Assembly: GCA_002030015.1 (NCBI GenBank)
Contig: LQBH01000011.1
Coordinates: 1 to 56,525 of the forward strand
Source of the DNA: a delta proteobacterium MLS_D
GTDB taxonomy: Bacteria > Desulfobacterota > Syntrophia > Syntrophales > UBA2210
Reading direction: 5' to 3'
Length of the DNA: 56,525 nt
The notes under the pieces were generated by a model, which saw only the letters and a program-made list of their open reading frames with translations, did not search any database and was not told the origin of the DNA. A program made the translations under genes and the position numbers. Below are positions 9,087 through 45,205 of the stretch, piece after piece; within the stretch, counting starts at the first letter, position 1, and each line of letters opens with the position of its first letter.

Positions 9087-10088
9087 TCACCCCTTCCCGT
9101 TTCCGACCACCTGCGATACCTGCACTGCCTGGTTGCCCCGGCGCCGTCCCGCATGTCCCACGAATTTCAGGTGACCTTCGACATAAATACCCAGGTCTTC
9201 GGTACAATACTGGTCCAGCAGGATTACGTCGCCCGGCTTCAACCTCAAGATGTCCTTCCCCGTTATTTCCGTGTTTCCCAGTTCAACCACGAGGGGAACT
9301 TCCACGGAGCGAATCTCTTCTCTGAACCTGTTTGAAAATTCCTGATCGGATTCACGCTTGTCAGTCTGGTAACTGCCCTGCAACTTGTCGCGAATAGGTT
9401 CCATGGTCGAATAGGGCATGCAGAGCGTCATTTTCCCGGACGCGTAATCCATTTCGAGCTCGAAATTCATGACCATGATCACGTCCTGAGGGGCCACTAT
9501 CTGGGCAAACTGGGGATTCGCCTCCGCCCGTACGTATTTGACATTTACGTCCAGCAATGTCTTCCAGGCCTCTTCCAGGTCCCCCAGGGCGCTTTTGACC
9601 ACCCGTTGCACGATGTTGTTCTCGATGGCGGTGAAATCACGGCCTTCCAGCCTGAAGTCATCCCGGCCGCTTCCTCCGAACAGGAGATCCACAAACGTGA
9701 AAATCAATCGTGATTCCACGATGAATATCATCTCCCCCCGCAGCGGTTTCATCTTAAAAATGTGCATGCTCGTGGGGAAAGGAAGCGTCCTGAGGAAATC
9801 GTGGTATTTGACCATGTCGACCGACGAAGTGTTGATTCCCACAACTCTCCTCAGGATGGACGACATGGTGCTCCGCAGGAGCCTGGCAAATTTTTCGTTC
9901 GTAATCTCCAGGGTCGGCAGCCGCTCCCGGACGATCTTCTTGTGACTCGTCAGGTCGTAGGGGCGGACATCCGTCCGCTGTTCCTCCGCAGCCGCGGCGT
10001 CATTCGTGTCGACCACGCCGTCGGAAATGCCCTTAAGAAGAGCATCCACCTCGTTCTGTGAAAGTATCTGTGACATCGACATCCCCAT
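9087..10088 (-). CDS. fliM: Flagellar motor switch protein FliM
   Basis: The protein has 333 residues. The N-terminal CheY-P-binding peptide is recognisable as 'ILSQNEVDALLKG' (about residues 8-20). The middle CheC-like domain follows, with the GGxGR-type loop 'LLFGGSGRD', and then a C-terminal SpoA domain ('EITGKDILRLKPGDVILLD'). FliM links FliG to FliN in the switch and receives the chemotaxis signal. Three in-frame ATGs at the start (residues 1, 3 and 5) leave the exact N-terminus open by a few residues. Confidence 0.95.
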   Translation of the reverse strand: MGMSMSQILSQNEVDALLKGISDGVVDTNDAAAAEEQRTDVRPYDLTSHKKIVRERLPTLEITNEKFARLLRSTMSSILRRVVGINTSSVDMVKYHDFLRTLPFPTSMHIFKMKPLRGEMIFIVESRLIFTFVDLLFGGSGRDDFRLEGRDFTAIENNIVQRVVKSALGDLEEAWKTLLDVNVKYVRAEANPQFAQIVAPQDVIMVMNFELEMDYASGKMTLCMPYSTMEPIRDKLQGSYQTDKRESDQEFSNRFREEIRSVEVPLVVELGNTEITGKDILRLKPGDVILLDQYCTEDLGIYVEGHLKFVGHAGRRRGNQAVQVSQVVGNGKG

Positions 10089-10122: not shown

Positions 10123-10632
10123 TTACTGAATGACGAAATCGGTGAAATACACCTTGCTGATCGACCCTCGACTGAGATAGTTGTTGATCCGCATGACTAT
10201 CTCGTCCCGCAGCTGCTGTTTTCCCTCGAATCCAACGACATCGCGATAATACTTGGAAGACAGAAGGTCCAGGATGCCGTCCATGATTTTCGGCCGCAAC
10301 AGATCCATCTCGTCCAGTATTTCCGGACTCGACAGCTCCAGTTCGATGGTTACTTTCAGATATCGCTGTCCATCATCGTCAAGAAGGTTCACGATCAGCG
10401 TCCCCATCGACCAGAGAGCCCCGATCGGCTGCGATTCATCTTCCGCCTCCTGCCGGTCCGCCGCCCGGTCCTGATACAGCATCCAGCCGCCCAGGCCTCC
10501 GCCCGCAAGAACGGCGACAATTACCAGCGCAATCAGAAATTTCCCGACGATGCCGCCTTTCTTCGGACGTTCCTCCACCGCTTCAACTTCGTCCGGTTCT
10601 TCCCGCCTGTCCCGTCTTTGTCGTTCCGCCAT
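10123..10632 (-). CDS. fliL: Flagellar basal-body protein FliL
   Basis: This 169-residue protein has a charged cytoplasmic N-terminus (~27 residues), a single membrane helix ('FLIALVIVAVLAGGGLGGWM', about 32-52) and a periplasmic stomatin-like FliL domain ending 'YLSRGSISKVYFTDFVIQ'. FliL surrounds the stator and helps stator function. It is preceded by GGAGG and sits between the second motB and fliM, a typical place. I see nothing odd in it. Confidence 0.93.
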   Translation of the reverse strand: MAERQRRDRREEPDEVEAVEERPKKGGIVGKFLIALVIVAVLAGGGLGGWMLYQDRAADRQEAEDESQPIGALWSMGTLIVNLLDDDGQRYLKVTIELELSSPEILDEMDLLRPKIMDGILDLLSSKYYRDVVGFEGKQQLRDEIVMRINNYLSRGSISKVYFTDFVIQ

Positions 10633-10644
10633 AGTTCCTCCCCG

Positions 10645-11328
10645 TCACCCCGGCGGGGTGATAATAATTTCGACTCTTCTGTTTGCCGCTCTCGCTTCGG
10701 CGTTGTTTCCCGGAACACGGGGTCGGGAATCGGCATACCCGGACGCCGACAGGCGTTCAGGCGCGATACCTCCCCGGTCGACCAGGCAGCGTACCACCCC
10801 CGTGGCGCGAGCCACGGAGAGTTCCCAGTTCGACGGAAAGCGGTCCGTCTGTATGGGAACATCATCGGTATGCCCCGCCACCCGGATGCAGGCTTCACTC
10901 TCGCGGAGGCGGTCCGCAAGGGCGTCAAGCATCGACCGTCCTGACGATCCGATGTCGGCCCTGCCGGATTTAAAAAAGAGTTTTTCATCCACCGTCACCA
11001 TAACTCCCTCGTCCACTACCCGGACATCGAAATCACCGGCGGTGCGAAGTTCTTCGGCAAGTTCCTGTTTCTGCCGTTCCAGGCTCAATCCCACCCGCCC
11101 CATGGGCGCGACAAAAGGTTCGAATATTCTGAATTCGGCGCCTGATCCCTCTTTTAGTTTTCCCAGGGCCGCACTCATGGAAAGACTTGCCTCCTTGACC
11201 TTCGCCGCGTCCATATTGGAAAGACTCAGCGTGAGAACAAAAAAAGTCAGCAGCAGGGTTACCAGGTCGTTGAAGGTGGTAAGCCACTTTCCTTCTGATT
11301 TCACTTCCTGTTTCGGTTCTCTGCTCAT
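10645..11328 (-). CDS. motB: MotB-type stator protein (second copy, ion-binding Asp present)
   Basis: This 227-residue stator B subunit has one membrane segment, 'FNDLVTLLLTFFVLTLSLS', which contains the essential proton- or sodium-accepting Asp (residue 21). The peptidoglycan-binding OmpA-like domain follows, with 'VAGHTDDVPIQTDRFPSNWE' and 'NAEARAANRRVEI'. With MotA it forms the ion-driven stator. It overlaps the upstream motB copy by 4 nt (ATGA). Of the tandem pair, this copy carries the full catalytic signature, so it is the likely ion-conducting subunit. Whether it uses H+ or Na+ cannot be read directly. Confidence 0.93.
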   Translation of the reverse strand: MSREPKQEVKSEGKWLTTFNDLVTLLLTFFVLTLSLSNMDAAKVKEASLSMSAALGKLKEGSGAEFRIFEPFVAPMGRVGLSLERQKQELAEELRTAGDFDVRVVDEGVMVTVDEKLFFKSGRADIGSSGRSMLDALADRLRESEACIRVAGHTDDVPIQTDRFPSNWELSVARATGVVRCLVDRGGIAPERLSASGYADSRPRVPGNNAEARAANRRVEIIITPPG

Positions 11329-12095
11329 CCCTGTCCACGTTCTGACGAACCGGCGCTCGTTCGTGCCGGTTCAAAATAGCATTCCACGCGGCGGTTCCTG
11401 GCCCTTCCTTTATCCGTATCATTGGAAGCCAGCGGACGGTATTCGCCGAAACCGACGGCTTCGAGTCGATCCGCCGGCAGCTTTCCCCTGGTGAGAAAAT
11501 ACCGGATTACATTCACCGCCCGAGCCGTCGAAAGCTCCCAGTTCGATGGAAAACGAGCGGTCGCTATGGGAACGTTGTCGGTATGCCCCTCGACTCTGAC
11601 CATGCAATCGGTTTCCTTCAAGACCTGAACTAGTTCGTCGAGGTAGGGATGCAGGGCGGCATCTATATCCGCCGTCCCCGAGGCGAAAAGAACATCCCCC
11701 TGCATCACCGCCTTGAATCCCCGGTCGGTTTTTTCGATACTCACGGCGTCCCCGGCTGCTTCCAGAATGGCGGCCGCCTCCTCCAGTTTTTCAAAAGCCA
11801 GCATGACCGTCTCGTTTTCAAGCGACGTCATTTCTTTCGACGGCAGGTGAACACGTTCGCCCGCCGTCGGCATATATCCCGTTTCATCGCTGCTCAAATC
11901 CGGCTCGTATTCCGCCGGCGTCGTGCCGCCGAATCCCCGCATGAAATTTGAGACCTTGTTATCCTCAATTGATGAATATGAAACCAGCATGGCGAAAAAG
12001 GCGACCAGAATGAGGACGAGGGCGCAATAGGTTATTTCCCATGACGCCGCCGGCGGCGGGACATTTTTTTTTCTGCCGGGTGACGCGTCGCCCAT
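11325..12095 (-). CDS. MotB-like protein (first copy) lacking the ion-binding Asp
   Basis: This 256-residue protein has the MotB layout: a short N-terminus, one hydrophobic segment (about residues 19-41), a linker and a complete OmpA-like peptidoglycan-binding domain ('RVEGHTDNVPIATARFPSNW', 'RARNRRVE'). Aligned on the shared Trp at the start of the membrane segment with the copy downstream, the essential Asp position is Ala25 (bases 12021-12023: W-E-I-T-Y-C-A against W-L-T-T-F-N-D). It should therefore not be able to bind the coupling ion in the usual way. It starts 3 nt after motA and overlaps the next motB by 4 nt. It could be an accessory stator subunit, a T-ring-like anchor or a heteromeric partner. 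Confidence 0.88.
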   Translation of the reverse strand: MGDASPGRKKNVPPPAASWEITYCALVLILVAFFAMLVSYSSIEDNKVSNFMRGFGGTTPAEYEPDLSSDETGYMPTAGERVHLPSKEMTSLENETVMLAFEKLEEAAAILEAAGDAVSIEKTDRGFKAVMQGDVLFASGTADIDAALHPYLDELVQVLKETDCMVRVEGHTDNVPIATARFPSNWELSTARAVNVIRYFLTRGKLPADRLEAVGFGEYRPLASNDTDKGRARNRRVECYFEPARTSAGSSERGQG

Positions 12096-12097
12096 GG

Positions 12098-12859
12098 TCA
12101 GACCGTGGACCTCCTTTCACCGGGAGCGATGAACGAGTGTAGTTTCTGCTCCAGGATTCGTGGATTGTCGCCGGACTGCACCGACAGGATCCCGCTTATG
12201 ATCATCTGCTTTACGAGCATTTCCTGGCCGCTCCTGGTTTTGAGCTTGCCCGCGATGGGGAGAAAAAGAAGATTCGCCAGCAGAATACCGTAAAAGGTCG
12301 TGATGAGGGCAACCGCCATTGCGGGACCGATGGCGCTGGGATCTTCCATCTGCATCAGCATCTGCACCAGCCCGATGAGGGTCCCCACCATACCCATTGC
12401 CGGGGCGAAATTCCCCATAGTGGTAAATATCTCGGCGCCAAGCCGATGCCGTTCCTCGATAAAGTCGAGTTCGGTCTGCATGATCTTCGACAGGGTCGCC
12501 GGCTCGATACCGTCGACCATGAGGCCCACCCCCTTGGCGAAAAATGGATCATCTATATCCTCGACCTTTTTTTCCAGGGCCAGTATTCCCTCCCTGCGGG
12601 CCGTTTTCGACATGTCGATCAGGGTTTCGATGGTTTCGGAAAGAGGCTGCTGACGGTGAAAGAACACCTGTCGCGCTATTTTCATGACACTGAAAATGTC
12701 CGCCATGGGATAATTGATGAAGGTCGCCCCGATGGTGCCCCCTACCACGATGAGTGCGGAGGCGGGACTGATAAACCAACTCAGGCCGCCGCCCAGCATC
12801 ATGGCGGCGGCGACGAGGCCGAACCCGGTTATGATTCCTACTATGGTCGCAAGATCCAT
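12098..12859 (-). CDS. motA: Flagellar stator protein MotA/PomA type
   Basis: I use the ATG at 12859 (253 residues); an in-frame GTG two codons upstream at 12865 is possible. There are four membrane segments: two near the N-terminus ('IVGIITGFGLVAAAMMLGG', 'SALIVVGGTIGATFINYP') and two in the C-terminal third ('GMVGTLIGLVQMLMQM', 'AVALITTFYGILLANLLFL'). The cytoplasmic loop between them contains the FliG-interacting charged region. Size and sequence fit the PomA/MotP branch. It is the first gene of the long motA-to-fliA operon, about 37 nt downstream of a sigma-54 -12 element (12896-12911). Confidence 0.94.
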   Translation of the reverse strand: MDLATIVGIITGFGLVAAAMMLGGGLSWFISPASALIVVGGTIGATFINYPMADIFSVMKIARQVFFHRQQPLSETIETLIDMSKTARREGILALEKKVEDIDDPFFAKGVGLMVDGIEPATLSKIMQTELDFIEERHRLGAEIFTTMGNFAPAMGMVGTLIGLVQMLMQMEDPSAIGPAMAVALITTFYGILLANLLFLPIAGKLKTRSGQEMLVKQMIISGILSVQSGDNPRILEQKLHSFIAPGERRSTV

Positions 12860-12895
12860 GCGCACACCCGCATCGATGAATTTGAATCATGGATG

Positions 12896-13163: not shown

Positions 13164-14591
13164 TTATCGTTTTACGTTCATCAGCTCGCTCATCATCTGG
13201 TCGGTCGTGGTGACAACTTTGGCACTCGCCTGATAGGCGCGCTGCGCGGTGATCATGTTGATAAACTCCTGGGCGATGTCGGTGTTGGAAAGCTCCAACG
13301 AGTTGGAAATGATGGTTCCCATGCCGCCCGTACCGGGAGCGTTCTGAATGGCGACGCCCGACTCAAGCGTTTCGCCGAAGAGATTCGCCCCCATGCGCTG
13401 CAATCCGAGGGGGTTCGAAAAGGTCGCCAGCATGACCTCGCCAATACTCGCCGTCTGGCCGTTGGTAAAGAAACCGGTGATGATACCGTCCTCCGTGACT
13501 GAAATACTGCGCAGTTCACCGGAGGAGTACCCGTCCTGGATAAGGCTTTTCACCACCGAGGTGCTTGCGTAGCCCGTCAGAGGCTCGACCCCTGAACCGG
13601 TCAGTTTCCAGTCCACGTCGATATCTTCGGCACCGTTTGCCAGTCCGGCGAAACTCAGGCTGGGATCCGTCGAAGGCGAGGTCAGTCCTCCGTCGGCAGC
13701 GAACTCGAAGTCCATGGGCATGTACACCACACCGTCATCGTCGATGCGATAATCGGACACCTCCCAATTACTTGCCGAACCCTCCGGTTCGCAATTGTCG
13801 TCGGTAGCCGAAGTATACCCGGTGGTACAGCGATAAACTGTTCCATCGTGCACGAGCAGGTCATCTTCCGCATAAGTTTCACCGTCGGCCACGTATGTCG
13901 TCTCATAGTCCGCCGGATCGAGGGCGTTGTGAACAATATTTGTTTCACCGGTCCCGGCCGCGACGAGAACGGCCCGCGCATCCCATTCACCGGCGGCCTC
14001 CTGTTTCTCAAATTCAAGTCGCAATGTGTGCGGCGTTCCGAGCGTGTCGTAGACTGTCTGTGCGATGGTGAATACCTCGCCGGTTGGTGTCGTAGCGTCC
14101 AGGTTTGCGCCGATGGACATTTCTGTGGTGGCCTTGGGCGCTGATTGAACATCCTTGAGCGATATGTCCGTCACGGCGTCGCTGTCGGCTGACATGAGAT
14201 TACATCCCTGCACCTTGTAGTTGTTTTCATCAACCATGTATCCCTCGTTATCCACCGAAAAGGCGCCCGCTCTCGTGTAGTAAATTCCTCCCTCGGCGTC
14301 ACGAACCATGAAAAAACCTTCACCGTCGATGGAAAGATCCGTCGCGTTCGACGTGGTCTCGAAAGACCCGGCGGAAAAAAGCGTATTGACGCCGCCGACG
14401 GAAACACCGCGTCCCACCTGCATGGTTCCGCCTCCGCCGCCGGTAAGGCTTTGACTCAGAATGTCGGAGAACAGAATCCTGCTGGACTTGTACCCCACCG
14501 TGTTCGCGTTCGCGATGTTGTTGCCGATGACGTCAAGCTGCGTCTGCATGGCGTTAAGCCCTGATATGCCCGAGTACAGTGAACTACTCAT
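13164..14591 (-). CDS. flgE: Flagellar hook protein FlgE with an extra inserted module
   Basis: This 475-residue protein has the canonical N-terminal rod/hook motif ('SLYSGISGLNAMQTQLDVIG', then NNIANANTVGYKS) and the C-terminal motif ('NTDIAQEFINMITAQRAYQA'), which form the D0 coiled coil. The FlaE/D2 domains lie between. Residues ~229-280 (bases 13752-13907) form an insert with a pattern like CBM5/12 chitin-binding modules: aromatic-rich, a 'DDLLVHDGTVYRC' strand and terminal 'SASNWEV'. It holds two Cys (255, 267) that could pair. FlgE polymerises into the hook. Its promoter is shared with fliK, and it ends the operon. About 300 nt separate it from motA, containing two hairpins and the motA promoter. 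Confidence 0.95.
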   Translation of the reverse strand: MSSSLYSGISGLNAMQTQLDVIGNNIANANTVGYKSSRILFSDILSQSLTGGGGGTMQVGRGVSVGGVNTLFSAGSFETTSNATDLSIDGEGFFMVRDAEGGIYYTRAGAFSVDNEGYMVDENNYKVQGCNLMSADSDAVTDISLKDVQSAPKATTEMSIGANLDATTPTGEVFTIAQTVYDTLGTPHTLRLEFEKQEAAGEWDARAVLVAAGTGETNIVHNALDPADYETTYVADGETYAEDDLLVHDGTVYRCTTGYTSATDDNCEPEGSASNWEVSDYRIDDDGVVYMPMDFEFAADGGLTSPSTDPSLSFAGLANGAEDIDVDWKLTGSGVEPLTGYASTSVVKSLIQDGYSSGELRSISVTEDGIITGFFTNGQTASIGEVMLATFSNPLGLQRMGANLFGETLESGVAIQNAPGTGGMGTIISNSLELSNTDIAQEFINMITAQRAYQASAKVVTTTDQMMSELMNVKR

Positions 14592-17780: not shown

Positions 17781-18332
17781 TCAGTTAACGTCGGTGGAAT
17801 AATGAAGAAAATCGGATATTTCCCTGGTGATGGCGGCGGCGGTATCAGGGTCCAGGTACCCCCAGATTTCACCCGCCGACTTGCTTTTCATGCGCATGAT
17901 GATGGCTGCGGCGGTTTTCCGGTTCAGCCGTTCAAGCATGGCCCCGGCCCGGTCCGGCGGCGCCGCCTCGTAGACTTTTGCCAGGTCGGTATACTGCTTG
18001 TCGTCGATGACCCTGATCGACTCCATCATCGAATCGAGCACGTCGATACGGGACAGTATTTCCTGCTTCAGCGACGAAAGCCTCTGTTCTTCATCGGTGA
18101 GTGTCTTCTCACGCTCGGCCAGCTCCTGTTCCTTCTCAGCCAGCATTTTCAGAAGTTCCCGGTGCCGCGACGATTGATCGTCGTCGGCTGCGCGCTCGTC
18201 GGCCACGGCATCGTCCGGCGACAGTGACGCCTTCCAGCTTTCCGTTTCCTTGATGACACCTGCCAGCGCGGCCACTTTTATCACGATCACCCCGATCAGC
18301 AGAATCTTGCAGAGAAACAGCAGTTTTTTCAC
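17781..18332 (-). CDS. motE: MotE-family flagellar protein (MgtE-N-like domain)
   Basis: This 183-residue protein has an N-terminal signal-anchor helix (about residues 3-25), a long coiled coil (about 55-110, with 'EKEQELAEREKTLTDEEQ') and a C-terminal MgtE-N-like helical domain ('VYEAAPPDRAGAMLERLNRK', 'AAAIIMRMKSKSAGEIWGYL'). In Sinorhizobium MotE is a periplasmic chaperone for a motor protein. In other phyla this small family simply accompanies fliJ and fliK. It overlaps fliJ by 4 nt and is the last gene before a strong terminator. The exact role here is unknown. Confidence 0.82.
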   Translation of the reverse strand: MKKLLFLCKILLIGVIVIKVAALAGVIKETESWKASLSPDDAVADERAADDDQSSRHRELLKMLAEKEQELAEREKTLTDEEQRLSSLKQEILSRIDVLDSMMESIRVIDDKQYTDLAKVYEAAPPDRAGAMLERLNRKTAAAIIMRMKSKSAGEIWGYLDPDTAAAITREISDFLHYSTDVN

Positions 18333-27324: not shown

Positions 27325-30300
27325 TCAGCGCGCCTGATCAGGTCTCACGTACTGCGCGTAAAATGATTCGTAGTCTTGCCCGTAATCGGCGACGCGTTTC
27401 CAAAACGGCCCGTCGGAACCGTTTTTCAACAACTCGAATGTCTGCGCCGCCATGTCGGCGTCGGGCAGTCGCGCATAAGACTGGCCGAGACGATATCGCA
27501 CCCAGCAGGTTTCCGTTTCGTTCCGTGCCGTTTCAAGCAGACGCCGGTAAAGGAGCGCGCTTTTTTCGTAATTTCCGCGGTAAAAATGACATTCCGCCAA
27601 TCCTTCACGCGCGGCCCGCGAAGAATGCAGGGCATCCGCGTCGTCGACGGCGTCGATCGACAGTGCCCGTTCATACTGAACCGCCGCCGCCGAATAATGC
27701 CGGAGGGCCTTCAAGACGTGTCCGTATTTCATCATTATCCGTCGCTGTTCCTCCGGCGACGCTTCCACGTCTGCGATAGCGGCGAAATGACCGGCCGCCT
27801 TCTCGCAATCCCCTTCCGCAAAGGCTATGTTTCCGATTATTTCCGAGGCTCGACGGGCGGATTCACTGCGGCTCGACGATGCCAGTTTGAGGGCTTCTTC
27901 CGCCCAGGTCCGTGCTTCATCGTACCTTTTTTCCCGAAACTCGATTCCGGCAAGAGCGACCATTGCCCGCGCCGCCGGCTTTTCAGGACGGCACCGTGAA
28001 AGAATGCCCTCGTAAATAAAACGGGCCGCGGAAATCAAACCAACTTCCACCAGGCTGTCCGCGGCATTGAAAAGTGATTCGTAATCCGCGGCACCGACAA
28101 ATCCGAAACGGCGTACCTCGAAAAAAATCTCGGCCGCCGCCAGGTGATTGCCGTCTTCATGATAATTGTCGACGAGATGCCCGGCGATATCCGTCAGATT
28201 GTGTATGGTTTCCTTTCGAAAAGGCCCCCATGGAGACTGTTCCTGGAGACTCCGGGCCGTTTCGAAGGCTTCACGGTAACGTTTTAATTGAACCAACGCG
28301 TTCGCCTTGAGAAAGAGCAGCTCGTCCCGTCGCTCCCGCTCTTCGCTCTGCGCCATGACTTCGTCGAAAGCAGATACGGGATCGCGGTAATATTCCATGC
28401 CGTCAAAAATATGACAAGGAAGTGACTGTCCCGGCCGGCGCAATCCCAGGTCCGCCATGATAACAATACTTTCCATCGCCTGACGGGTGTCGGGATACCG
28501 TTTTACCACCATCGCGAGCAAGCTCAGAGCCGCCGGGACCTGATCCATGACGGCGAGAATCCGACCCGCGCCGTGGAGGACCTCGGGAGCTTCGGGAGCT
28601 TCGGGATAAAGGTTGAACCAGCTGAGAAAAATATCGAGTCCGCGCTCGTAATTCCCGCTCCTCATATAATGCGATCCCAGGGTCAACAGGTCCTGCCTGG
28701 GCACTGCTTCGAGCGACGGCCACATGCGTATCGCCCGGTCGAAAACCTCATCCGCTTCGGCGAACCGGCCCAGTTGTGAATAACTGTCGCCCAGCGTGAT
28801 AAGAGCCGCGCGCAGATCTTTACCCTGTGGATATTCTGACGTGTACTGTGAAAGTTCCTCGACGGCCTTTTCGAACTTTTGCATTCGGTAATAAAAAAGT
28901 CCCCGCAGGTACACCGCCCCGGGAACAAGGGGAGAATCAGGATAATCATCACAAAGTCGGTTCAATTCCCGAAGACCTTCATGGTAAAGACCCAGGGATT
29001 CATACCCTTTTGCCATGCGCAGGAGTATGTCATCGTTGCCCCGGACCCCATCCGGGTAGAGACGGAGTATCTCCCGATAACGATCGATTGCGCTGTTCAC
29101 GGAACGGCGATCCCCCCCCAGGGACAACTGAAAGAAGCTGTCGGCGGCCCGTCGAATGGCGATCTCTTTCGTGTCTTCATCCAGGTCTTCATCCTCCAGA
29201 ATTGTCTCGAATTGTTTCAGTGCGGTTTCATACTTTTCCGCCTCGAATGACGACAGGGCTTCCATAAGCAGTGAATCTTCAACCGTTTTTCCGGGCGGTG
29301 CCGACCGCGTATCATTTTTTGCCGCGTCCACCGATTGAACGGAAACAGGATCTTCAGCAGTCATCGGCTCCTCTTCAACGGGGCAATCGGGTTGTTCCTT
29401 ACCACCCGTCTTCACCTTCACACTGCCGACCGAGTCTTCGGGTTTCCCCACATCTCTCCGCTTCGCCTGCATCGTATCGCCATCTACACCGGCGGAACCG
29501 GTCTTTCGGCCGTCACCGGAACCTTCAGAACCCACAGTTTCCTCAACATTTCTCTGCTGTGTCCGCGCATCATCGGCATTGGCGCCGGAGGCCGCATCTC
29601 CTCGGTCATCGCTGGAACCGCCGCAGTTTTCGGTTTTTTCAGATCTCCTCCTTGCACGCGCATCACCGGTATCTGCGGCGGGGGCTCGACCATTTTTCGC
29701 TTCATCTTGAATCCTGGAATGCACGGCCGCACCACCGGCGTCCGGTTCACCGCGGGGAATCCCTTCCAGTTCCATGACTGTATAGTCCTCGAGAATCCCC
29801 TCCTTCTTCAGTTCTGCGGCGCGTTTACCGGCCTCGTTCTGATCTTCGTAAAAGCCTGCGAACACCCTGTACCAGTCCCCTCTGCCCGGCAGGGAAACGA
29901 AAACTGAACGAGCCCTGCAACCCTTTTTTTGAAAACGGTCGGCCATCGCTTCCGCCCGCTCCCGATCCCTGAAGGAACACACCAAAATACCGAAACCGGC
30001 TTCCGGCGGCGTATCGATCCTGTTGAGAGCGTCGCGTTCCACCGACAAGAGCGAATATTCATCGATGATGCCGCGTTTTCGAAGCGCCTCGCCATACTGG
30101 CGTGCTTCACCCCGGTCCTCGTGAATCCCGGCGAACACACGATGCCAGTTTCCCAGGTCCGGCAGTGAAACGTCCCTGATAACAGCCGGGCAACCTTTCT
30201 CTTCGAGCGAAGTCGCCAGGGCCTCTGCGTGAGCTTTTTCCTTGAACGAGGCCACATGTACACCGAATGCGGCCTCGCAACGACCGGCGCAGAAAAGTGC

Positions 30301-30357
30301 CGCGGATACCCACAAAATCAGGATGGCAACTGTCATGGTGCTGTTTTTACGTTCCAT
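27325..30357 (-). CDS. Exported SPOR-repeat and TPR-repeat protein
   Basis: I place the start at the ATG at 30357 (1010 residues). An upstream start at 30429 would lie at the very edge of the sigma-54 promoter (30432-30447) and upstream of its likely transcription start. The new N-terminus is a good signal peptide ('MTVAILILWVSAALFCAG', then RCEAAFG). Two SPOR-type domains follow ('GVHVASFKEKAHAEALATSL', 'GILVCSFRDRERAEAMADRF'), which in other proteins bind denuded septal peptidoglycan. A low-complexity Ser/Gly/Asp/Arg linker with ~30-residue degenerate repeats comes next, then about 600 residues of TPR units. It lies 46 nt upstream of flrB. A periplasmic scaffold or flagellar/septal factor is plausible, but the function is unknown. 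Confidence 0.82.
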   Translation of the reverse strand: MERKNSTMTVAILILWVSAALFCAGRCEAAFGVHVASFKEKAHAEALATSLEEKGCPAVIRDVSLPDLGNWHRVFAGIHEDRGEARQYGEALRKRGIIDEYSLLSVERDALNRIDTPPEAGFGILVCSFRDRERAEAMADRFQKKGCRARSVFVSLPGRGDWYRVFAGFYEDQNEAGKRAAELKKEGILEDYTVMELEGIPRGEPDAGGAAVHSRIQDEAKNGRAPAADTGDARARRRSEKTENCGGSSDDRGDAASGANADDARTQQRNVEETVGSEGSGDGRKTGSAGVDGDTMQAKRRDVGKPEDSVGSVKVKTGGKEQPDCPVEEEPMTAEDPVSVQSVDAAKNDTRSAPPGKTVEDSLLMEALSSFEAEKYETALKQFETILEDEDLDEDTKEIAIRRAADSFFQLSLGGDRRSVNSAIDRYREILRLYPDGVRGNDDILLRMAKGYESLGLYHEGLRELNRLCDDYPDSPLVPGAVYLRGLFYYRMQKFEKAVEELSQYTSEYPQGKDLRAALITLGDSYSQLGRFAEADEVFDRAIRMWPSLEAVPRQDLLTLGSHYMRSGNYERGLDIFLSWFNLYPEAPEAPEVLHGAGRILAVMDQVPAALSLLAMVVKRYPDTRQAMESIVIMADLGLRRPGQSLPCHIFDGMEYYRDPVSAFDEVMAQSEERERRDELLFLKANALVQLKRYREAFETARSLQEQSPWGPFRKETIHNLTDIAGHLVDNYHEDGNHLAAAEIFFEVRRFGFVGAADYESLFNAADSLVEVGLISAARFIYEGILSRCRPEKPAARAMVALAGIEFREKRYDEARTWAEEALKLASSSRSESARRASEIIGNIAFAEGDCEKAAGHFAAIADVEASPEEQRRIMMKYGHVLKALRHYSAAAVQYERALSIDAVDDADALHSSRAAREGLAECHFYRGNYEKSALLYRRLLETARNETETCWVRYRLGQSYARLPDADMAAQTFELLKNGSDGPFWKRVADYGQDYESFYAQYVRPDQAR

Positions 30358-30431
30358 ATGATTCGCGATACTGGCGGCCCCCTGAGGTCCCGCTGTCTTT
30401 TTCGATGTCCCCACTCTCGATGTTTCCAATC

Positions 30432-42636: not shown

Positions 42637-43536
42637 TCAGAACCGGAATGTCATGCCCGCAGCCCCGGGATGTACACGCCCGCCCAGTTCCCGCCGCAGA
42701 AACTCCGTCGCTTCATCGCCGGTACAATGACAGGGCACGATCATTGCCGGGTCGATTACTTTCAGGGCCCGCACGGTCTCGTCCAATCTCCGGCGATCGG
42801 CGTTCACCAGGTGAAAACCGCCGATAACGGCTCGAATGGTGGTTCCCCCGGTCAGTGCGGTCACGTACCGCAGCGTGTTCACCAGGCCGGCATGACAGCA
42901 ACCCACACATACCACCAGCCCCTCGCCGGTCTGAATCCAGAGGGCCAGGTCATCGTCTATCATGTCGACCCGCCGTCCTCCCGGATCCAGATAGAAGGGA
43001 CCTCCCGAGTCTTCAAAATCCGTCTCCCGCGGCACGGGACCGGTGATGCCGACCGTGTTCGACAGCATGACCGGCTCCTGAATCCAGTGGAGACGTTCTT
43101 CAGACAACTCGTCAACGGCGGCCATTGACACGCGGGGCATGTGAATCGCCCGTGCCCTGCCGTCCCGTATGGAATAGCGGGGCTGAACGACACCGGCATG
43201 ACAGTAGACATCCGCTTTCGTGGCCAGTTTGAGCACCGCTGCGATGCCGCCGGTGTGGTCATAGTGACCGTGGCTGAGAACGAGTGTGTCTGTTTTCCGC
43301 AGGTCGACGTCGAGGCTGCGCGCGTTCGGTTGCAACGCTTTTCCCTGTCCCGTATCGAAGAGGATCGTCCTGTCACCGGTTGCGATCCAGAGGGACAGGC
43401 CGTGTTCCTCCATCAGGCCGTTTTCAACGTGATTGTCGACGACTATGGTGATCGTGGTGCCGCTCATCGAATCGGCCGGGGAAGCCTCGCCCGCCCCGCC
43501 AATCGATTGATTTTCCGAATCAGTGGTCACAGACAT
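42637..43536 (-). CDS. Metallo-beta-lactamase-fold hydrolase, COG1237 type
   Basis: From the ATG at 43536 (299 residues). The metal motif is 'LSHGHYDHTGG', and the N-terminal 'TIVVDNHVENGLMEEHGLSL' and 'ILFDTGQGKALQPNA' are typical of the COG1237 group, annotated after the pterin-ribofuranosyl-aminobenzene-phosphate synthase of methanogens but of uncertain role in bacteria. 'CVGCCHAGLVNTLRYV' and 'GGFHLVNAD' provide further His ligands. The start lies 17 nt inside the Mrp fusion gene, so the two are coupled. Genes of this type often sit beside Mrp/NifX genes in anaerobes. Confidence 0.88.
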   Translation of the reverse strand: MSVTTDSENQSIGGAGEASPADSMSGTTITIVVDNHVENGLMEEHGLSLWIATGDRTILFDTGQGKALQPNARSLDVDLRKTDTLVLSHGHYDHTGGIAAVLKLATKADVYCHAGVVQPRYSIRDGRARAIHMPRVSMAAVDELSEERLHWIQEPVMLSNTVGITGPVPRETDFEDSGGPFYLDPGGRRVDMIDDDLALWIQTGEGLVVCVGCCHAGLVNTLRYVTALTGGTTIRAVIGGFHLVNADRRRLDETVRALKVIDPAMIVPCHCTGDEATEFLRRELGGRVHPGAAGMTFRF

Positions 43537-45205
43537 TGTCCCCCAGTTGCAACTGACCGGCCAGATAATCGTCGACAAGGTATTCCGGCGTCTCGGACGG
43601 CGCACCCACCATCACGTGAATGCCCCTCTCTTCGAACAGATTCTTTGCCATTTGTCCCATGCCGCCGGCAATAATCACCGTGGCGCCGCGCTCGGCAAGC
43701 CATCGGGGAAGCAGGCCCGGCTCATGGGGCGGCGACTCGAGATCTTCCCGGTTGAGTATTTTTTTTGTTTTTGTGTCAACTTCAATGACGGCGAAGCGTT
43801 CGCAATGACCGAAATGCATGGCGAGTCTTCCTTCCGCCAGGGGAATCGCAATTTTCACGATCTCGTCGTTCGTTTCGGCGGCGGGGTTAACCTCGGACGC
43901 TTGCTTGCCGGAGGTCTCCGCAGGCCCTCCGTTTCCGTCCAGCGCCGCGACAGGGGCGATAATTGAGCGCATGATCTCCGCCGTTTGAGAATCGGCGAAT
44001 TGCTGAATGAATACACTCCCGCGGTCCGCCGCCTCGGAAATCTCCGGTTCGATGGGAATCGAACCGAGAAACTGCACGCCCATGTCTTCGGCAATCCGCT
44101 TCCCGCCGCCGGAACCGAGAATCGGCGTTGCCTCGCCGCATTTCGGACAGACAAAACCACTCATATTTTCCACGACGCCGAGAACCGGCACTCCGATCTG
44201 GCGGCAGAAGGTGATGGATTTCCTGACATCAACCGCCGCCACCCGCTGGGGTGTCGTCACGATAATCGCTCCATCCACCTCGCCCATGAGCTGGCAGACC
44301 GAGAGTGGCTCGTCGCCGGTTCCGGGGGGTGAATCAACGATCAGGAAATCCAGGTCCCCCCAGATTACGTCTGAAAGAAACTGCCTGATTACGTTCATTT
44401 TCATGGGCCCCCGCCAGATAACCGCGTCGTCCTGGTTCTGCAGCAGAAAGCCTATCGACATAACGTTGAGATTACCCATTGCGACGGGAAGCAGGCCGCC
44501 GTCCGATCCCTTTATAATTTGACCTTCCAGACCGAGCATGGTCGGAATACTGGGACCGTGAATATCCACGTCGAGAAGCCCCACTTTCTTTCCTGCCAGC
44601 GAGAGAGCAATGGCGACGTTCACGGCGACAGTGCTCTTGCCGACGCCGCCCTTGCCCGAGAGAACCACCAGCTTGTGCCGAATACGACCGAGGCGGGACT
44701 GGAGCTTCTGTCGTTCCTCAAAGTCGCGGTCGCTTTCACCCGGCTTCCGTTGATCGGCGGCTCCGCCTCCTTCGGCGCTGTGGGGCACTTCTTCCTGGTT
44801 TCCCGTATTTTCGGCGGCCGCCGCCCCCCTTGTCTGATAATCATTACAGGCGGTTCTAACCGCCGCCACAACCAGCGTCACGTCATCGTCCGCCTCGGCC
44901 GGAACACTGCCAAGGGCGCCCAGAAGATCCTGCCGCGTCAGTGCGCCGGCATCCTCGATCCGTTTTCCCTCAAGCATCGTCGTTGCCAGGCTTCCCGCAG
45001 CCCGCGCGGCATCGCTGCCGTTCGTTGCAAAGGACAGTGTTTCAATGATTCCATCAGGAGCAGAAATCCAGAATTCCATTGTTTCGCCGCGCGGACCGCT
45101 TATTCGCGCGTGGCCGTCAAATTCTTTAAGTGGCCCGTAATTTCTCGGGTTTTCCGCATGATCACGCGCTTCGGCGGATAATGTTTCACTATCGGTGCGT
45201 TCCAT
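43520..45205 (-). CDS. IscU-like / Mrp ATPase / NifX triple-domain fusion (MrpORP-like)
   Basis: The 561 residues make three domains. Residues ~15-125 resemble a NifU-N/IscU scaffold ('HAENPRNYGPLKEFDGHARI'), but two of three cluster Cys are replaced (Arg39 in 'GPRGETM', Ser64 in 'NGSDAARAAGS'), and Cys120 remains. Residues ~175-420 are an Mrp/NBP35 ATPase with Walker A 'GKGGVGKST' (184-192) and the cluster-bridging CPKC (353-356). Residues ~449-561 form a NifX/dinitrogenase-cofactor domain ending in '...NVCDH'. Mrp ATPases carry Fe-S clusters. Mrp fused to an ORP/NifX domain is known from Desulfovibrio. The ATG follows AGGAGG. Confidence 0.9.
   Translation of the reverse strand: MERTDSETLSAEARDHAENPRNYGPLKEFDGHARISGPRGETMEFWISAPDGIIETLSFATNGSDAARAAGSLATTMLEGKRIEDAGALTRQDLLGALGSVPAEADDDVTLVVAAVRTACNDYQTRGAAAAENTGNQEEVPHSAEGGGAADQRKPGESDRDFEERQKLQSRLGRIRHKLVVLSGKGGVGKSTVAVNVAIALSLAGKKVGLLDVDIHGPSIPTMLGLEGQIIKGSDGGLLPVAMGNLNVMSIGFLLQNQDDAVIWRGPMKMNVIRQFLSDVIWGDLDFLIVDSPPGTGDEPLSVCQLMGEVDGAIIVTTPQRVAAVDVRKSITFCRQIGVPVLGVVENMSGFVCPKCGEATPILGSGGGKRIAEDMGVQFLGSIPIEPEISEAADRGSVFIQQFADSQTAEIMRSIIAPVAALDGNGGPAETSGKQASEVNPAAETNDEIVKIAIPLAEGRLAMHFGHCERFAVIEVDTKTKKILNREDLESPPHEPGLLPRWLAERGATVIIAGGMGQMAKNLFEERGIHVMVGAPSETPEYLVDDYLAGQLQLGDNVCDH

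Follow-up and report, generated by a model that had tools for sequence, protein, structure and literature searches.

Why does an operon with a single motA carry two motB genes in tandem, the first of which lacks the aspartate on which ion binding depends? This question is raised by the window, i.e. the whole 56,525-nucleotide stretch of DNA that was analysed here, in which the original prediction had recognised two adjacent MotB genes served by one motA. The Asp-less paralogue is referred to below as MotB*. The features of the operon and the two codons at issue are located as follows.

13164 to 14591, minus strand: flgE, encoding the hook protein, a neighbour conserved on the upstream side; identified from a hook-protein-like sequence and from homologues 5′ of motA in most relatives, not from a family scan
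12098 to 12865, minus strand: motA; matches to PF01618 and MotA_N over the cut-off, with MotA/PomA chains as closest solved relatives
11325 to 12095, minus strand: motB*, 256 aa; paralogue of MotB in which Ala25 replaces the ion-binding Asp and Leu28 replaces Thr
12021 to 12023, minus strand: Ala25 codon of motB*, the site equivalent to the ion-binding Asp, aligned with PomB Asp24
11325 to 11328, minus strand: overlap of the motB* stop and the motB start, 4 bases, from the ORF coordinates
10645 to 11328, minus strand: motB, 227 aa; Asp21 and Thr24 present, OmpA-like domain intact
11266 to 11268, minus strand: Asp21 codon of motB, read from the sequence
10123 to 10632, minus strand: fliL; PF03748 match, conserved downstream neighbour by synteny in relatives
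9087 to 10088, minus strand: fliM; FliM match in the genome, conserved neighbour by synteny in relatives

The resulting gene order on the minus strand, flgE-motA-motB*-motB-fliL-fliM, recurs in most of the relatives' loci inspected, and the 4-base overlap suggests that translation of motB may be coupled to that of motB*. Both proteins had been predicted to keep the membrane helix and the peptidoglycan-binding domain, and this was borne out by the family models: MotB_plug (PF13677, curated cut-off 24) was matched with 28.4 bits by MotB* and 50.8 bits by MotB, and OmpA (PF00691) was matched over its curated cut-off by both. In the genome, which is 96% complete, MotB* and MotB are the only MotB_plug matches. 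PF01618 is found in three proteins, one of which adjoins motB, while the other two match only the later part of the model. The view that one motA serves both copies is upheld by these counts, and a second motA dedicated to MotB* was rejected, as no further one adjoins a motB among the three PF01618 proteins. Elsewhere in the window, likewise on the minus strand, a small protein encoded near fliK (17781-18332) begins with a hydrophobic segment, has a helical stretch and ends in an MgtE_N-like part that gives a weak FliG_N match, and is probably MotE-like; a 1034-aa protein (27325-30429) carries SPOR domains and many TPR repeats; and NifU_N-like, NUBPL/ParA P-loop NTPase and FeMo-cofactor-type domains are fused in a single protein (43520-45205).

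At the site in question MotB* reads SWEITYCALVLILVAFF (Ala25) and MotB reads KWLTTFNDLVTLLLTFF (Asp21). When solved stators were aligned with a profile built from MotB* relatives, the Ala25 column fell on Asp24 of PomB and on the Asp of C. sporogenes MotB. The original prediction is confirmed in this respect. This Asp is the ion-binding residue and is essential for stator function (PMC9093738). Judged by sequence, MotB* is a MotB paralogue and not a MotB in the functional sense, because Ala25 takes the place of that residue; a protein annotated as MotB need not bind the ion.

The distribution of the pair was examined by a first search covering 60 relatives, whose loci were then inspected, and by wider searches afterwards. 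Within the window's class the pair was present in about 30 genomes from 12 families. Elsewhere in the phylum, Thermodesulfobacteriota, it occurs in another 12 families (two named records are the Desulfobacterales MAG L114 and the Desulfobacteraceae MAG L118), and it is also present in Nitrospirota (L255, L259, L260, L262, L263 and the Troglogloeales MAG L129). The counts were taken from locus lists and represent samples, not a census. The search centred on genome G535 returned largely the same phylum, and recurring genomes (G numbers above 836) were counted once. Universal presence in the class was rejected, as several flagellated genomes among the 60 FliM-bearing ones have flgE-fliL-fliM without mot genes between. 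Contig ends aside, each Asp-less copy with enough flanking DNA adjoins an Asp-bearing motB, and no lineage was found to carry a solitary, separately controlled MotB* among the loci inspected.

For 54 aligned pairs the Asp column of the first copies contains Ser (36), Ala (10), Gly (5), Asn (1) and Asp (2), whereas Asp is found in 54/54 second copies and in 26/26 single MotBs. Absence of the Asp from 52/54 tandem first copies, compared with 0/54 second copies and 0/26 singles, is not due to chance. The replacing residue is nearly always small (Ser, Ala or Gly), as would suit a packed site in the helix. At i+3, Thr is kept in 49 of the 54 second copies (with Ser in 3) and in 24 of the 26 singles, and almost all first copies have Leu, Met or Ile there. 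The first-copy helix has a signature of its own, consisting of Gln/Glu16, Cys20, Phe30, Met32 and Tyr36 in MotB numbering, with Phe30 present in 42/42 MotB* helix sequences. A private mutation is ruled out by the orthologous first copies, which lack the Asp across relatives, and the loss, looked for in orthologous pairs as the original prediction had proposed, is conserved over 24 families of the phylum and into Nitrospirota. Tandem motB genes with Asp in both copies were found at L197 (genome G527), where the first copy (L197:2853-3656) reads AWLTTYCDLM, and at L304 (Desulfovibrio sp. UBA6079), where L304:1702-2556 reads AWLITFSDMM. These two pairs share the motA-motB-motB order with the window operon but differ from it in retaining the Asp twice, and may represent the state before Asp loss.

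In a maximum-likelihood tree of 110 proteins, the first copies form one group (support 95, starred), the second copies lie on one side of a branch (92), and the single MotBs form another group (95, starred); the L197 first copy falls with the Asp-less first copies although its Asp is kept. A grouping driven by the trait itself was rejected, since the first copies still fall to one side of a branch, with an unstarred support of 84, in a tree of the periplasmic part from which the transmembrane columns had been removed. In the latter tree, a better likelihood than that of the quick search was reached when the second copies were constrained to stay together, and a single group of second copies was not rejected. 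After enlargement with Nitrospirota and divergent members, 52 of 53 Asp-less first copies (84) and 54 of 55 second copies (93) stay together. The exceptions, outside these main groups, are L199, whose Asn-bearing first copy is placed beside that of L197, and L304, whose pair sits on long branches among the single MotBs in a position that is unsure. The two groups have much the same internal branching order, and their distances are correlated (r 0.83; 0.69 after removing MotA), but common ancestry would also produce such a correlation and a matching topology. The likely history is a single old duplication, with loss of Asp from the first copy thereafter and joint inheritance or transfer of the pair; because of the exceptions just named, a single duplication is not proven.

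Comparison of motB* with its 91% identical orthologue in the nearest genome gave a dN of 0.048 and a dS of 0.231, close to the values for motB (0.041 and 0.246) and fliL (0.040 and 0.217). With a dN/dS of about 0.2, the same as for motB, motB* is by this measure under purifying selection. Mean identity in the MotB* helix is 0.53, compared with 0.56 in single MotBs and 0.42 in the MotB* periplasmic domain.

The possibility that another acidic residue takes over in the ion path was examined on both sides of the pore. The window MotA has the pore residues Pro155, Thr162, Thr189 and Thr190, and in the 40 pair loci these columns are conserved in 40/40, 40/40, 39/40 and 40/40 cases, respectively; Pro155 is presumably the equivalent of E. 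coli Pro173, judged by the motif. No acid was found at the pore-lining positions of MotA TM3/TM4 in these 40 loci, and none in the MotB* helix from Trp19 to Ser41 except Glu20, which lies beside the Trp at the cytoplasmic end. A replacement acid in MotA or MotB* was consequently rejected for lack of a candidate at these positions, and the reported loss of the Asp withstands this check.

The AlphaFold model of MotB* consists of one long N-terminal helix and an OmpA-like domain resembling the periplasmic domains of MotS, PomB and MotB; because its mean pLDDT is 73.5, it was used at the domain level only. Another close fold match is PDB 3khn, the 'putative MotB like protein' DVU_2228 of Desulfovibrio vulgaris. 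The tested peptidoglycan-binding residues (Asp and Arg) are present in both copies of 38 pairs, in the first copy only of 6, in the second only of 5 and in neither of 5, in a tally of 54 pairs that includes the incomplete rows L051 and L292. Loss is often confined to one copy of a pair. In L047-L050, L214, L217 and L232 these residues are eroded or replaced in MotB* and the helix is retained, which points to the helix as the essential part of MotB*. In L047 and L048 (family f12) the peptidoglycan-binding Asp of the GHTD motif is gone from both MotB copies of an otherwise complete operon. The reverse case is seen in L213 and L081 (family f9), where MotB* retains the binding Asp and the Asp-bearing MotB has Lys or Gly there.

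In known stators five MotA subunits surround two B subunits, and an a x b rule gives the ions per turn of such 5:2 motors (PMC9389320). The reading that we favour, with a probability of roughly 0.6, is that MotB* is a dedicated ion-inert B subunit that shares one MotA pentamer with MotB, so that the stator would be asymmetric (MotA5-MotB*-MotB). A mixed dimer is the simplest reading because a conserved ion-blind helix and an intact helix are encoded by adjacent genes beside one MotA. The sole ion-binding Asp would come from MotB, and MotB* would act as the other helix of the axle and, in most cases, as another peptidoglycan clamp. One ion site instead of two would then be visited per MotA passage, and a full turn of the MotA ring would take about 5 ions, not 10. 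At a given ion-motive force each unit would run at half the ion cost and deliver no more than half the torque. Such a heterodimer is supported by what is observed: Asp and Thr are lost in a conserved way, the pair is inherited together, there is a single MotA, and motB* is under selection. A helix about as conserved as that of single MotBs, an intact MotA side of the pore, and the frequent loss of peptidoglycan-binding residues from one copy only are consistent with it. Among the roles that the original prediction had offered for the Asp-less copy, mixed stators fit best, and MotB* may also tune torque; the static anchor fits less well, as binding residues are lost while the transmembrane signature stays.

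Conservation of the MotB* helix would also follow from MotB* homodimers inside MotA, which might form docked units unable to pass ions and act as a brake, a spare clamp or a regulator competing with MotA5-MotB2 for MotA and docking sites. Whole units could be formed by MotB*, because the transmembrane segment, the plug-like region and usually the peptidoglycan-binding residues are kept, and Asp-replaced stators still dock in Borrelia (PMC6663468). Nevertheless this role is judged unlikely: a permanently inert unit encoded in the same operon would compete with active units at about equal dose, several lineages lack the MotB* peptidoglycan-binding residues that a brake or clamp should keep, and in no lineage was MotB* seen by itself under a control of its own. 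Even more doubtful is a MotA-independent function as a periplasmic anchor or ring component round the motor. Polar motors elsewhere possess scaffold rings, MotB* has an OmpA-like domain whose binding-site Asp is kept in 36/41, and the modelled fold is that of stator periplasmic domains. An anchor, however, has no detailed need of the transmembrane segment, which is more conserved than the periplasmic domain (0.53 vs 0.42) and persists in the loci named above where the binding motif has decayed; moreover, the gene always lies between motA and motB.

A heterodimer could also be envisaged in which MotB* only tunes ion selectivity or gating and the second site is supplied by MotA or water, with about 10 ions still passing per turn. 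Because a carboxyl at MotA Pro173 can conduct protons without the MotB Asp (PMC4030992), the ion site need not in principle be on MotB. This variant is nonetheless very improbable, given a Pro at position 155 in every one of the 40 pair MotAs and pore-lining TM3/TM4 positions without acid. Ordinary decay of a redundant MotB copy could account for the eroded OmpA domains of some members, but is hardly credible next to a dN/dS of about 0.2, like that of motB and fliL, a single substitution class across two phyla and an unbroken transmembrane signature; for the motB* of the window it was ruled out by the dN/dS and the conserved signature.

The mixed MotA5-MotB*-MotB stator faces a mechanistic difficulty of its own. 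Cells whose MotB population carries Asp->Asn are non-motile in E. coli and Borrelia (PMC6663468), and in a published two-site model both MotBs drive rotation in turn (PMC9175137). For these reasons a stator with one site must cross 72 degrees with no Asp on the partner; either its working differs from what these models describe, or the role of MotB* is a different one. Only tentatively, and at somewhat less than even odds, do we propose that a natural one-site rotary stator, in which MotA5 turns round a MotB*-MotB axle by 72 degrees per ion, with about 5 ions to each full turn, is so old that Thermodesulfobacteriota and Nitrospirota have it in common, as a lower-cost, lower-torque gear. If this is true, the one-site stator would be a ready-made test of the need for two alternating sites, the question of ions per turn would become directly testable, and light could be shed on the passage of the ring through 72 degrees with no partner site and on a possible trade of torque against ion economy in bacteria.

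An Asp-less MotB partner is apparently undescribed: no description was found in the open-access literature searched, to which this statement is limited, and the terms 'aspart', 'heterodimer' and 'two MotB' are absent from the text of a 2025 survey on the evolution of MotAB. The canonical MotAB, PomAB and MotPS stators resemble the present system in their ordinary MotA, which is of the MotA/PomA type here, and in an ordinary MotB, whose domain plan and modelled periplasmic fold are shared by MotB*; they differ in having two identical B subunits, both with Asp, whereas one of the two B genes lacks it here. Myxococcus AglR/AglQ/AglS likewise combines one MotA homologue with two MotB homologues, for which hetero- versus homodimer formation is stated to be undecided, but AglQ and AglS are both described with the conserved Asp and belong to a gliding, not a flagellar, motor (PMC9389320). 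In the TolQ-associated TPH-vWA pairs, B-like subunits are mostly encoded as heterologous gene pairs with one A-type gene; their domain architecture is different and both partners are described with Asp (PMC12204202). The closest published arrangement is that of Aquifex aeolicus, where motA is followed by motB1 and motB2 in one operon (PMC4525482); heterodimers are apparently not discussed in that paper. As reported there, the transmembrane regions of Aquifex MotB1 and MotB2 are 97% identical, with one difference (Gly20/Ser20), and the N-terminal/transmembrane regions worked as chimeras with MotA in E. coli. Both chimeras powered motility, so that neither Aquifex copy is ion-blind, unlike MotB*.
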